Of a stretch of DNA of 64,000 bases, positions 20,970-25,555 are shown in pieces. Source of the stretch: a virus. The position numbers and the translations under genes were made by a program. The DNA lies in the IMG/VR virus record IMGVR_UViG_3300036944_000561, positions 1-64,000 of that record. One strand, 5' to 3'. The notes under the pieces are model-generated. The model was not told the origin of the DNA. It saw nothing but the letters and a program-made list of their open reading frames with translations, and did not search any database. Numbering within the stretch: the stretch's first letter is position 1; every line of letters begins with the position of its first letter.

Positions 20970-21302
20970 ATGTACTATATCTTCACAGGTTCTACAGGGA
21001 ACGCATTCATGTTTCTGAAGAATACCTATCCAAAAGTAATTGAATCAACCTCAGATATTTCAGAAGCTCTTCAAATTCATAATTTTAATGAAGCCATAGA
21101 TTTATGTAAGAAAGAACACGTTGTTCACAAGTTCTTCTACAACGAACAACCCCCAATAGTTCGCCCAATTGGGATTGCAGTTGTTGATGGCTCTATCGAT
21201 AGTGAAGATTTCAGAGGTTATACCGGGAACATAACACGTAGGACTATACAAGATGCTGGTTCAAATTTCCAACAATTCATCAAGTATGCAATCTATGAAT
21301 GA
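20970..21302 (+). CDS. Hypothetical protein
   Basis: A 110-residue protein with TGGGATTTC upstream of its ATG. Not recognised. It begins MYYIFTGSTGNAFMFLKNTYP, with a nucleotide-binding-like GSTGN but no full P-loop. Four bases of its end overlap a broken mini-gene. First of a string of small accessory genes after gene 4. Confidence 0.7.
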   Translation: MYYIFTGSTGNAFMFLKNTYPKVIESTSDISEALQIHNFNEAIDLCKKEHVVHKFFYNEQPPIVRPIGIAVVDGSIDSEDFRGYTGNITRRTIQDAGSNFQQFIKYAIYE

Positions 21303-21443
21303 TAAAATTGTTCAATTGAAACTTGGATATGTTGAGTTTAAATTCAATCTAAGAACAGCTTGTCACCAGAAGAAGTCCAGGAATTCATGGAAGTCCTAGG
21401 AAAATTTTTGGCGAGCAGAACAAGGATACCCTTTACTTCTTAA
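21295..21443 (+). pseudogene. Frameshifted mini-gene
   Basis: ATG at 21295 opens MNDKIVQLKLGYVEFKF, then runs to a stop at 21397. In another frame (-1 or +2 relative) the same DNA continues as SLSPEEVQEFMEVLGKF and ends at 21443. Together the two parts read like one small protein of about 50 residues, with the shift between about 21340 and 21360. Either a one-base deletion or a frameshift signal. No slippery heptamer is evident. Confidence 0.45.
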
Positions 21444-21460
21444 CAGTAAAACAATATAAT
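21432..21460 (+). promoter_or_regulatory. Early promoter (TTTACT - 17 - TATAAT)
   Basis: TTTACT at 21432-21437 and TATAAT at 21455-21460, followed by GGCTCC and a leader with ACCCAAGAGGATA before the ATG at 21495. One of six such promoters in the window. Confidence 0.75.
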
Positions 21461-21494
21461 GGCTCCGATAGCTAACTGAACCCAAGAGGATACC

Positions 21495-21665
21495 ATGAAA
21501 GCTAAAACGAAAAATCTCACATTAGACGATTTCATCTCAGATTATCAATGTATGGTTGTTCGAGGAATACATCGCAACAAGAAATATATTGAAAAATACA
21601 TCTCTTCATATTACACCCATATCTCCAAGGAAGTTCATTCTTGGTTAGAGGTTCATCATGGATAA
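21495..21665 (+). CDS. Small early protein (56 aa)
   Basis: A 56-residue basic protein beginning MKAKTKNLTLDDFISDY, directly downstream of an early promoter with AAGAGGATA as ribosome-binding site. Its stop overlaps the next ATG at 21658 by 8 bases, so the downstream genes are probably expressed from the same promoter. Function unknown; small early basic proteins in T4-like phages often act on host proteins. Confidence 0.7.
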   Translation: MKAKTKNLTLDDFISDYQCMVVRGIHRNKKYIEKYISSYYTHISKEVHSWLEVHHG

Positions 21666-21963
21666 CATCAAACGAGAACAAAAGCACTTTTTAGAAAAGA
21701 TTAAAGCGCAACTTCCACACTTATCTTCTTCATTGACGGATAGTGAGATGTGGTTTTTATCTCAGAAGTGTGCAAACAAATTCACGCATATTGCTAGAGT
21801 TTGCAAGAAAATTTCTAGAACATCTTTCAAAATCAAAGATGTTACTGGGGACAAACAAATTTTCAAAGAAGCCAGTTTGTTAACAGACAAAGAATACCAA
21901 GTAAAAATTACTCTCGACTCCAATGGAAAAACATACCTTATTTCGTTTGATGTGGAGTTGTAG
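21658..21963 (+). CDS. Hypothetical early protein
   Basis: A 101-residue protein, overlapping the preceding 56-residue gene. Lys-rich, helical N-terminus (HFLEKIKAQLPHLSSSLTDSE), beta-like C-terminus. Not recognised. Part of the early cluster running from the promoter at 21432. Confidence 0.72.
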   Translation: MDNIKREQKHFLEKIKAQLPHLSSSLTDSEMWFLSQKCANKFTHIARVCKKISRTSFKIKDVTGDKQIFKEASLLTDKEYQVKITLDSNGKTYLISFDVEL

Positions 21964-21995
21964 AATGACTGTTTCAATCAATATTTCGAGAAATA

Positions 21996-22418
21996 ATGAC
22001 CATGACAATACCAATAGCTCCAAACACCCTGAGCGGGGATGAAATAGAATTCTTAAAGAATGTTCCAACAAACAAGAACATTACTTCGAAATCAACAGGT
22101 CAAATTTTCAATTTGATCTCTAAAGGATTTTTGTTGGAAATTGGAGATAAATTATTTTGTAGAACCCCAAAAGGTGATAATTTTATTCAGAAGTATAAGA
22201 TCAATGAACAATGTTTTATTGATCATGGATACTCTTCTATAAAATGTATAGAATCAGAATTGTTAGGCTATTCAATGTGTTCTATCTTTGAAGTCGATAC
22301 AGACATTGGACGTGTCACAAGTTACGCTATCAACGGCGTCATATATGCTAGAAAAATTGATTACGAAAATAGGATTTTTGAAATTTTCAACTCTTATAAT
22401 GATCCAAGGGGTGTTTGA
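21996..22418 (+). CDS. Hypothetical early protein
   Basis: A 140-residue protein with CGAGAAATA upstream of the ATG. The first 60 residues (LSGDEIEFLKNV, KSTGQIFNLISKGFLLEIGDKLF) look like a winged-helix fold, but I cannot confirm this. The stop overlaps the next start (TGATG). Function unknown. Confidence 0.72.
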   Translation: MTMTIPIAPNTLSGDEIEFLKNVPTNKNITSKSTGQIFNLISKGFLLEIGDKLFCRTPKGDNFIQKYKINEQCFIDHGYSSIKCIESELLGYSMCSIFEVDTDIGRVTSYAINGVIYARKIDYENRIFEIFNSYNDPRGV

Positions 22419-22777
22419 TGTCTATCTTTCAGTGTGAAAATTGTGGTTGTGCTGAGAATACCGTGTACGGTGAAGCATTTTATGACCCCAAATGGTTTGA
22501 TTGGACAGGAATAGAAGAACGCAAGGGATTGAAGTTGTGTTCTGCTTGTTCTCCGACTTCGTTTTCTGAAGGTACACCAACCAAATGGAAAGGGAAGTGG
22601 CACAATCAATACCCGAGAATCTTTCTAGAGAAAGGAATGTGGAAGACAAATGGGGTTGGGAATCTAGAACATATAGATCTACATGTCACCAATTATTGGG
22701 ATTTTGCGTTAAACAAAGAAGTTACAGAATACAATTATTCTGGGCATTCATTAATAGATGATGGAGAAACCAAATGA
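22418..22777 (+). CDS. Hypothetical protein with zinc-ribbon-like N-terminus
   Basis: A 119-residue protein. Residues 5-8 (CENC), a later Cys (GCA) and LCSACS supply paired cysteines like a zinc ribbon. The C-terminal half is rich in Trp, Asn and His. It is coupled at both ends by ATGA/TGATG overlaps to neighbours, inside the early accessory cluster. Function unknown. Confidence 0.75.
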   Translation: MSIFQCENCGCAENTVYGEAFYDPKWFDWTGIEERKGLKLCSACSPTSFSEGTPTKWKGKWHNQYPRIFLEKGMWKTNGVGNLEHIDLHVTNYWDFALNKEVTEYNYSGHSLIDDGETK

Positions 22778-23037
22778 AATTTGTATTGTTATTAGTCGTT
22801 GTTTGTGTGTTGTCTGGTTGTGCTGACGATGTCCCGTATCAGATTACAACCCAAATAGAACCAGTCGGATTCTGGTATGGGTTGTGGCATGGGATGATAG
22901 CGCCATTCTCATTCTTGGTTTCACTGTTTGATGATAATGTAGCTGTCTATGCCGTTTACAATAACGGCGGATGGTATAATTTTGGATTTGTACTGGGCAT
23001 TGCATCACTTTCCGGTTCTAGTAGTAGCGGAAAATAA
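22774..23037 (+). CDS. Predicted lipoprotein
   Basis: An 87-residue protein with a classic lipoprotein signal: Met-Lys, a hydrophobic run of Val/Leu, then VLSGC (lipobox, Cys16). After that, GFWYGLWHGMIAPFSFLVSLF and the GWYNFGFVLG segment are conserved-looking aromatic blocks, and the tail is Gly/Ser-rich. It should be lipidated in the cell envelope. An early phage lipoprotein could serve in superinfection exclusion, which is inference. The start overlaps the previous stop by 4 bases. Confidence 0.78.
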   Translation: MKFVLLLVVVCVLSGCADDVPYQITTQIEPVGFWYGLWHGMIAPFSFLVSLFDDNVAVYAVYNNGGWYNFGFVLGIASLSGSSSSGK

Positions 23038-23040
23038 AAG

Positions 23041-23068
23041 TTTACTTCTTCAATAATCCGCGTATAAT
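23041..23068 (+). promoter_or_regulatory. Early promoter (TTTACT - 16 - TATAAT)
   Basis: TTTACT at 23041-23046 and TATAAT at 23063-23068, followed by GGTTGAC and a leader ending CCCCTAGAGGATACAACC before the ATG at 23110. Confidence 0.8.
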
Positions 23069-23109
23069 GGTTGACAGTTGATTGAAACTTGCCCCTAGAG
23101 GATACAACC

Positions 23110-23661
23110 ATGGCTTCAACAAACGCTCCCCGCAAAGAACTTTTCGCTATCATGTCTGGCGAGAAGAATGCAATGTACACTCTCCGTCATTATGAGATTA
23201 TCTATTACTCTGTAGGAAATATCCCAGTTTATGGTTGGGTGTATATATGCAACTTGTCAATCGACAAAGAACGCGCCCTTGAAAAAGCTTCAGAAGTTTC
23301 TGGTCTCCCAGCAAAAGACATCGAATTTTATGCTGATAAACTGAACGCTTATGAAACCGGAGGAAATGGTGGCGGCGGTCAAAAACTGTCTGACGAAGAG
23401 ATTGCTAAACGTCGTGAAGAATATGAAGCTGAAAAACAAAAGAAATTCGAAACTGAGAAGACAATGGCTCAGAATGGTTATTGGCCATTCCCCGGAAACG
23501 ATTACAATAAACCAATCATCAATCATTTAACCCGTTCATCTTTGGATTGGTGGGCTAAAAATGAATTCGAAGCAGGAAGCATAGCAGAGTATGTACAGGA
23601 ATATGTCATCAATAATCTGACTAGATTTATCCTTCCAGACGTTAAAGCCTCTGCGGATTGA
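23110..23661 (+). CDS. Early protein, N-terminal part of a TGA-interrupted gene
   Basis: A 183-residue product from ATG 23110, with CTAGAGGATA as ribosome-binding site. It has a beta-rich domain (GWVYICNLSIDKERALEKASE), a Gly-rich linker, a charged coiled coil (DEEIAKRREEYEAEKQKKFE) and a WPFPGNDY-K segment. It ends at TGA 23659. The same frame then stays open to 24309 and encodes an OB-fold-like domain and a coiled coil, so the intact protein may have been 399 residues. Function unknown. Confidence 0.75.
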   Translation: MASTNAPRKELFAIMSGEKNAMYTLRHYEIIYYSVGNIPVYGWVYICNLSIDKERALEKASEVSGLPAKDIEFYADKLNAYETGGNGGGGQKLSDEEIAKRREEYEAEKQKKFETEKTMAQNGYWPFPGNDYNKPIINHLTRSSLDWWAKNEFEAGSIAEYVQEYVINNLTRFILPDVKASAD

Positions 23662-23703
23662 GTCGGTGAGCAGATTGGTAATCGTGTAACAATCGACGCC
23701 ACT

Positions 23704-24309
23704 GTGATCCGCTCAAGCGGTTTCAGAAGGGCTTCTGCCTATTCTTACAATGGTGCTGAATGGGTAACCATTACAACCCTGGTCACCGACAAAGGTCAGA
23801 TGGTGACCGTATTCTCAACATCATTTTATTCAAGTGTTGGTTCACGGTTGAAATTCAAAGCTACTGTCAAGGATTTCACACAATTTGAAGGAATGAACCA
23901 AACCATCGTTCAACGGGTGAAGGTTATTGAAGAAACTGATGATGAAGAAGAGTTCAGAAACGTCCAGGATTATGCTCGTTCGAAGCATGATTTACATCAC
24001 GCAATGAAAACTTTGGTCACCCAATGTCTTTCGGATATCGACCGCCGTAATGAATTTATCTCAGATTACAAAGAAGATTTGGAAAAGGCTGATGATGCTA
24101 ATCAGGATTTCTTCAACAAACTCATACGACATGAATATGATAAGATCTTAGAACTGAGAATAATTATCGAAGAACTCAAATTATTCAAACATGAAAAACT
24201 TGAAAGAGAAATCGAACGATTTGAAATGTGCAAGAAACAACTGGTTGAAGCCGGGTTCAAAGACTATGAAATCCCAGTTGTTAATGAAAATGGTTTACTT
24301 CTTTTCTGA
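23704..24309 (+). CDS. C-terminal part of a TGA-interrupted gene (OB-fold-like)
   Basis: In the same frame as 23110-23661 after a single TGA. Only a GTG at 23704 could start it separately, and no ribosome-binding site precedes that. Codons between the TGA and 23704 already read VGEQIGNRVTIDATV, which fits the first strand of the OB-fold seen at the end of many phage proteins, continuing SGFRR, VTITTLVTDKGQMVTV and FKATVKDFTQFEGMNQTIV-RVKVI. A coiled coil follows (about residues 110-190). It is likely the second half of one protein, made by readthrough or left by a nonsense mutation. Confidence 0.6.
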   Translation: MIRSSGFRRASAYSYNGAEWVTITTLVTDKGQMVTVFSTSFYSSVGSRLKFKATVKDFTQFEGMNQTIVQRVKVIEETDDEEEFRNVQDYARSKHDLHHAMKTLVTQCLSDIDRRNEFISDYKEDLEKADDANQDFFNKLIRHEYDKILELRIIIEELKLFKHEKLEREIERFEMCKKQLVEAGFKDYEIPVVNENGLLLF

Positions 24310-24722
24310 ACCGTTCTCTTATAATCTTTTAAAAGGATGTCCCCATGGCATCCTTTTGGTTTACAACAACAGACCAAATCATGATTCCTAAGAGCAAGCA
24401 TCTCAGCGTCTGTTACTACACCCGTCAAGCGAATCACCGTCCAATATTCTTCAAAGCATTCTAGGACTTCTGAGCGCGTGAGAGACCCGCCTCTAAGGGC
24501 ATATCTCAAGGCAACTTTTAAACATTCGGTCTCCCCCGGTAATCCAATCTGGTTTGCAATAATAGATCTGACTTCTCGTATTGTAAGAACCGAACCAATC
24601 TTGAAAGGATTTGAAAATTTGGAAGGCCTCATGATAGATACCCGAGGCCGGGTAGAAGTATTGTCTGGAGATTTGTAATTCAGAATCCTGGGAGAATCAT
24701 TCTGAAACAGAAGTTTGCTCAT
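24264..24722 (-). CDS. DUF4326-family protein
   Basis: A 152-residue protein. MRPSKFSNPFKIG and the C-terminal ALRNHDLVCCCKPKGCHGDIL match the DUF4326 pattern (RPS-FSNPF and HDLVC-C-P--CHGD-L). DUF4326 proteins are widespread in phages and bacteria; the reaction is not established to my knowledge. Basic N-terminal extension. Its end overlaps the convergent + strand gene by 46 bases; its start overlaps the upstream 65-residue gene by 4 bases. Confidence 0.8.
   Translation of the reverse strand: MSKLLFQNDSPRILNYKSPDNTSTRPRVSIMRPSKFSNPFKIGSVLTIREVRSIIANQIGLPGETECLKVALRYALRGGSLTRSEVLECFEEYWTVIRLTGVVTDAEMLALRNHDLVCCCKPKGCHGDILLKDYKRTVQKRSKPFSLTTGIS
24331..24357 (+). terminator. Terminator inside the opposite gene
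   Basis: AAAAGGATG and CATCCTTTT pair around a 9-base loop, 21 bases after the + strand stop. The hairpin is inside the coding region of the convergent DUF4326-like gene, so the two transcription units overlap tail to tail. Confidence 0.6.
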
Positions 24723-24916
24723 GATACGTGAACTCTTACCTCTTTGTTACCAGCCCCGGTGAATTTATATGTTTGTCCTTTCTGAAGTTCGCGAGGGGTC
24801 TTTTTCTTATCGACGCCTTTGACTCCCATACTTTTCAACTTCATAACCAAATCTTCACCGTTAGAAGAACTCATACGAACATCAGACCCTTCACGCTGAA
24901 TAACAAAGTTTGCCAT
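24719..24916 (-). CDS. Small hypothetical protein (65 aa)
   Basis: A short, basic, mixed protein (MANFVIQREGSDVRMSS...), with GGAGATTGG upstream of the start. Its stop overlaps the start of the DUF4326-like gene, so the two are coupled. Not recognised. Confidence 0.68.
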   Translation of the reverse strand: MANFVIQREGSDVRMSSSNGEDLVMKLKSMGVKGVDKKKTPRELQKGQTYKFTGAGNKEVRVHVS

Positions 24917-24940
24917 CTACCAATCTCCAAAAGTATTTTC

Positions 24941-25555
24941 TCAGTTATTATAACCGAGTCTTCTTAATGAAAAACCAACAATGGGTTCATATCCCTGATT
25001 CATCAAAGAGAATACACTGGTGTCGGAGAGATTCAATATTAACGTCTCACCTGGCTCTATGGTGTATTCTTTCAATTCGTGTCCCAAACCAATGCTGTTT
25101 TCAACCCACACATTATTCATTTTTAATTTAATTTCACCATGAGTATCATTCGAAAGTTTTATTTGAACCGTGACCGTGAAATTTCCACCTTCAAGATTCT
25201 TGGATTGCTCTTGTATGTCTTTCAGGGTATCCGTTCTCAAAAATAAAATGAGAGTATCGTTTTTACCATAGTAAAATCCAAACCGAGATTCTTTTACCGA
25301 AGTGACGTCTGGATACTTTACTACCGGCAATTTGTAATGTACTTCTTTTTCTTTCTTACAAACAGAGTTCCAAACATATGTTCCTCTCCAATATTCACAT
25401 CCCGAACTGACTCCATATATCTTCACAGTTATTTCGTCAGACTTTTGTTTCAAAAATGTGCTAAGAGGAACTTCAGATTCCACCTGTATTTTACAAGAAC
25501 ATATCACTATCGAAAAAGCCATGATGAAAATCATTTTCATCATTTTCATCATCAT
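24941..25555 (-). CDS. Predicted lipoprotein
   Basis: A 204-residue protein with a Met/Lys-rich start, a hydrophobic stretch IFIMAFSIVICSC and Cys as likely lipidated residue, followed by KIQVESEVPLS. This layout (Cys-Lys-hydrophobic-x-Val, then a beta-rich domain with a Cys pair) resembles small phage and prophage lipoproteins I know as the DUF7424 type, at low certainty. Late-type TAAATA boxes lie upstream at 25595. The gene is first of a three-gene minus-strand block placed among + strand genes. An envelope role such as exclusion is inference. Confidence 0.7.
   Translation of the reverse strand: MMMKMMKMIFIMAFSIVICSCKIQVESEVPLSTFLKQKSDEITVKIYGVSSGCEYWRGTYVWNSVCKKEKEVHYKLPVVKYPDVTSVKESRFGFYYGKNDTLILFLRTDTLKDIQEQSKNLEGGNFTVTVQIKLSNDTHGEIKLKMNNVWVENSIGLGHELKEYTIEPGETLILNLSDTSVFSLMNQGYEPIVGFSLRRLGYNN

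Follow-up and report, generated by a model that had tools for sequence, protein, structure and literature searches.

The window analysed here is a 64,000-nt stretch of a 128,524-base virus record, and at 23110-24309 it holds a reading frame that would encode one continuous protein were it not for a single TGA in its interior. The question raised by this locus is whether ribosomes pass the stop, whether the stop divides the frame into two genes, or whether it has truncated a gene that was formerly whole. The best-supported answer, with a probability of somewhat below 60%, is that a recent nonsense substitution has become fixed in the lineage, yielding mainly a protein of 183 residues, with possible leakage at the UGA.

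The interrupted reading frame

Translation bears out the original prediction that the frame is open save for one TGA: the stop at codon 184 is the only one inside it, and the frame is otherwise open for 399 codons (Table 1). The 215 open codons past the stop would be expected by chance with a probability of ~2e-5 at the stop frequency of the genome. Codon usage is gene-like before the TGA (0.22 bits per codon), after it (0.14) and in the 14 codons that separate it from GTG 23704 (0.31), the reference being a mean of 0.10 bits per codon in genes of at least 150 aa. The start at ATG 23110 is preceded by a ribosome-binding site, AGAGGA, with a duplex energy of -5.8 kcal/mol (genome median -5.9).

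The in-frame TGA is genuine: it recurs in two other IMG/VR assemblies (3300043119_000281 and 3300043037_000025), which show 0 differences from the studied genome over 17,795 and 9,918 bases, respectively. As three assemblies agree without a difference, a base error in one assembly is excluded and sequencing or assembly error in general is highly improbable, and the allele has reached fixation in the lineage that the three represent; since they are identical, they stand for one lineage and do not supply independent evolutionary evidence. A DNA pattern in which the TGA codon was left open matched the two known copies only, and no sense-codon allele was recovered.

Table 1. Features of the interrupted frame and its surroundings (window coordinates).
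Feature	Position	Strand	Details
Ribosome-binding site AGAGGAT	23097..23103	+	Before ATG 23110; from sequence and anti-SD duplex
N-terminal ORF, 183 aa, to in-frame TGA	23110..23661	+	phrog_3628 N-terminal part, positions 11-130 of 257, E 8e-10
N-terminal beta module, TLR ... NLS motif	23143..23253	+	Modelled strands 12-16, 23-32, 39-48
Small helical module, G-x-x-P-F ... Y/L-x-W, residues 123-169	23476..23616	+	Modelled helices 142-150, 158-169
In-frame TGA	23659..23661	+	Codon 184; context GCG GAT TGA GTC GGT; same in two other assemblies
GGTGA, possible ribosome-binding site for ATT 23674	23665..23669	+	-4.5 kcal/mol
OB-fold domain, residues 186-275	23665..23934	+	phrog_3628 positions 175-257, E 9e-15; modelled strands 192-276
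In-frame ATT, codon 189 (speculative start)	23674..23676	+	Only restart with a ribosome-binding-site-like motif that keeps the whole OB domain
In-frame GTG	23704..23706	+	First standard start past the TGA; codon 199, inside beta-1 192-208
C-terminal helical extension, residues 278-399	23941..24306	+	Modelled helices 278-326, 329-357, 364-380
Terminal TGA of the full frame	24307..24309	+	Followed by four sense codons, then another in-frame stop

Domain organization and relatives

Both halves of the frame match phrog_3628, a family of unknown function, in consecutive order. Its members include Escherichia phage Lw1 gp270, the RB43 and RB16 homologues, Pseudomonas phage YuA gp43 and Rhizobium RHph proteins, and they share with the protein studied here an N-terminal motif, a small helical module and a C-terminal OB domain in the same order. 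However, they are encoded by one ORF of ~250-290 aa that ends after the OB domain, whereas the present frame has a TGA before this domain and ~120 extra residues. The residues that are invariant in the alignment of the N-terminal beta module (T24, L25, R26, N48, L49 and S50) are kept, G123 and W147 of the small helical module are conserved, and a conserved VGE entry, (V/I)GE in relatives, precedes the OB-fold domain. Judged by sequence, the frame is a phrog_3628 homologue in a split state. Its helical extension is missing from the aligned homologues and gave no tblastn match in the phage collection.

The read-through protein was modelled with AlphaFold, using Trp for the TGA and an alignment that included 20 relatives (mean pLDDT 78); residue 184 falls in a loop that joins helix 158-169 to strand beta-1 (192-208). 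The residues past the stop had been read as the first strand of a phage OB-fold domain, and the analysis supports this, assigning them to the entry and beta-1. By structure, the OB part clearly matches uncharacterised phage proteins (down to 5.5e-20); against the PDB it has a weak likeness to single-strand DNA-binding OB folds (best E 0.02), and a sequence search of solved structures returned coiled-coil noise only. The fold suggests that the protein may bind DNA. In another virus contig (L054:3935-5587) the N-terminal TLR/NLS module forms part of a fusion with a helicase-like protein, which indicates that the module is mobile. The same OB domain occurs on unrelated N-terminal parts at L037, L045, L059 and L044, and some of these partners have Cys pairs resembling zinc-binding motifs.

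All intact homologues examined (~20 full-length sequences, and 38 complete ORFs that contain the OB domain), from pseudoteven, YuA-like, Rhizobium and uncultured phages, are uninterrupted across the TGA point, in agreement with the earlier claim that the TGA splits one protein, and in 235 phage records a match at a single place covers at least 80% of Lw1 gp270. None of these intact homologues has a stop or start at this point, the stop being carried by the identical copies only. Two genes with an independent start for the second, an arrangement that the original prediction had named as counting against it, were looked for and found in none of the homologues examined. Apparently split homologues in Lw1, GuL6 and KPN-11i were discarded, as the annotated second gene only overlaps the end of the match by 4 bases, and a GTDB scan returned no relatives. 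The alignment column of the TGA, just before (V/I)GE, holds a variable linker residue in relatives (T, H, Y, I, L and others); the sense residue anticipated there is thus present, while a conserved Trp or Cys is not. Given this variability, the site would probably accept whatever residue was inserted. The mean BLOSUM score of the OB part is 1.41, within the range of intact relatives (0.66-2.31) and above the 0.67 of the part before the stop, and so indicates no decay. An old pseudogene is ruled out by the lack of a further lesion past the TGA and by OB residues conserved as in relatives.

Genetic code and recoding signals

That the TGA reflects an error, a changed genetic code, selenocysteine or ribosomal bypassing is highly improbable; the argument for such an origin is a single odd codon, and this group of explanations is already largely refuted. 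Among 156 predicted ORFs, 58 end in TGA, and a scan of the genome for any further TGA that is flanked by coding signal but lacks a start close behind it found none, consistent with the earlier claim that TGA is a genuine stop in the other genes and the code is unchanged. No suppressor tRNA was found in the 128 kb, where the search returned tRNA-Met(cat), tRNA-Arg(tct) and a permuted tmRNA only. With TGA ending so many ORFs, one anomalous TGA and no suppressor tRNA, UGA reassignment and opal suppression were rejected. A selenoprotein was likewise rejected: hairpins downstream of the TGA reach z -0.8 to -1.4, none being strong or SECIS-like, no Rfam element matched near the TGA at gathering score, and relatives have no conserved Cys at this column. 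Bypassing of the T4 gene 60 type fails because a hop from GAT 23656 to GAT 23673 meets TGG and then TAA 23679.

Elsewhere in the genome, four other stop-flanked ORF pairs (15333, 31693, 49381 and 42836) have their own start close behind the stop, and the pair at 85408 has no coding continuity passing the scan. On the minus strand at genome 86102-86845, a TGA is followed by 101 open in-frame codons, also without coding continuity passing the scan; the downstream part is probably a separate gene that begins at an internal ATG.

Possible restart after the stop

The original prediction further held that the second half is not a separate gene, as a start at GTG 23704 would lose the first strand of the OB fold and lacks a ribosome-binding site. 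This stands for GTG 23704, which has no such site (duplex +0.4 kcal/mol) and would cut beta-1, and a restart there was rejected. It does not stand for ATT 23674, a candidate that had been missed: a start here leaves strand 192-208 whole and is possible in principle. Gene fission of this kind, in which ribosomes would end at the TGA and restart 12 bases on, making the OB-fold part as a protein in its own right with beta-1 complete, is nonetheless improbable. The ATT lies near the stop and behind GGTGA, although a duplex energy about as good as its -4.5 kcal/mol occurs at 10-25% of random positions, and ATT is a very rare, non-standard start. As a mobile module, the OB domain occurs with several unrelated N-terminal partners, and small stand-alone viral proteins of similar fold exist (e.g. 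81-97 aa); against this, in all 38 complete OB-containing ORFs (231-347 aa) the domain forms the C-terminal end of a longer protein, and 0/38 of this OB sequence family start at the domain.

Genomic context and host

The neighbours of the split gene are T4-type tail and recombination genes. By the UvsW-like helicase, the nearest sequenced phages are Aeromonas phages phiA8-29 (Ackermannviridae, genus Tedavirus) and TSW001, with ~56% identity. The split gene was not found in these phages, one of the searches being without a positive control in their records, and the plus-strand genes at 20970-24309 have no match in the compared stretches of phiA8-29 and TSW001. Three small minus-strand genes at 24264-25555 of the window form the conserved part of the region in the two phages (24-34% identity). 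Defence-system models gave no match. A permuted (two-piece) tmRNA gene lies on the minus strand at genome 96190-96531 (L014:12190-12531; RF04321, 107 bits; tag ANDNVYDVRAAA), near genes for tRNA-Met and tRNA-Arg. Permuted tmRNAs are typical of alpha-proteobacteria, some beta-proteobacteria and cyanobacteria, and this gene may hint at the host, though the nearest phages infect Aeromonas.

Nonsense substitution or programmed readthrough

A nonsense substitution is the most likely explanation of the split frame. The ancestor would have had one accessory gene composed of the TLR/NLS module, the small helical module, the OB-fold domain and a private helical tail. By an apparently recent substitution, a linker codon before the OB domain would have become TGA and then been fixed in the lineage. 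The main product would now be the N-terminal protein of 183 residues, which ends at the domain border and so probably still folds, and a little full-length protein may come from misreading of the leaky UGA as Trp, in an amount set by the host. This reading is supported by the uninterrupted relatives, by the variable linker residue at the TGA column, by the absence of decay in the OB part and by the lack of a recoding element in the searches made. In addition, the gene is accessory and without a copy in the nearest sequenced phages, so that its loss would be tolerated, and truncation at a domain border is the most easily tolerated kind of nonsense mutation. Counted against it are the position of the TGA in an interdomain loop of ~22 residues, which a random stop would hit with ~6% chance, the absence of any further lesion in the 215 codons beyond, and the fact that UGA is the leakiest stop in bacteria. 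In its favour, genes of mobile elements commonly have in-frame stops and are over-represented in a survey of prokaryotic genes that contain such stops yet stay under constraint (Belinky et al. 2021, PMC7918605). The cases in that study resemble this one in having a single stop within a gene that is otherwise intact, but there dN/dS was tested in related genomes, whereas here there is no close relative for it.

The main rival is programmed or selected readthrough, in which a fixed minority of ribosomes would insert Trp at the UGA to make a long form containing the OB domain, with short and long forms differing in role as do the coat and A1 proteins of Qbeta. Such readthrough is possible, the positive evidence being the position of the stop, yet it is judged unlikely. 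The TGA falls exactly at the domain border, at a position that tolerates many residues; the part beyond it is intact and well conserved and has no usable standard start, though ATT 23674 is present; and the case is the sole one of its kind found in the genome. Against readthrough, no hairpin or other recoding element was found near the stop, no homologue keeps the stop, so that conservation among diverged relatives is lacking, and the TGA occurs in one lineage, without evolutionary depth. In Qbeta, as here, a UGA lies between two domains in one frame and the second domain is reachable only through it, save here for a putative restart at ATT 23674; the Qbeta long form, however, is known, is made at the coat stop ~1 time in 15 and is required for infection (PMC8067240), whereas the present one is putative and no relative keeps the stop. 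Misreading of UGA is host-dependent, reaching ~12% in E. coli as against 0.04-0.08% in two Pseudomonas species (PMC9481147), which may not represent the host of this phage. It is accordingly rather unlikely, on the analysis as a whole, that, by way of a leaky UGA between domains, this double-stranded DNA phage produces a putative DNA-binding protein both with and without its OB domain, in proportions that depend on UGA misreading in the host.

Implications

If the TGA is a nonsense mutation, which is the likelier case, the locus is mainly a warning for annotation: where relatives have a single protein, gene callers would list two hypothetical proteins as if unrelated. If readthrough proved true, a large DNA phage would offer a clean case of a stop that sits between two independent domains, and the form of a phage protein would be tied to the host-specific leakage of UGA (12% in E. 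coli compared with <0.1% in Pseudomonas; PMC9481147).
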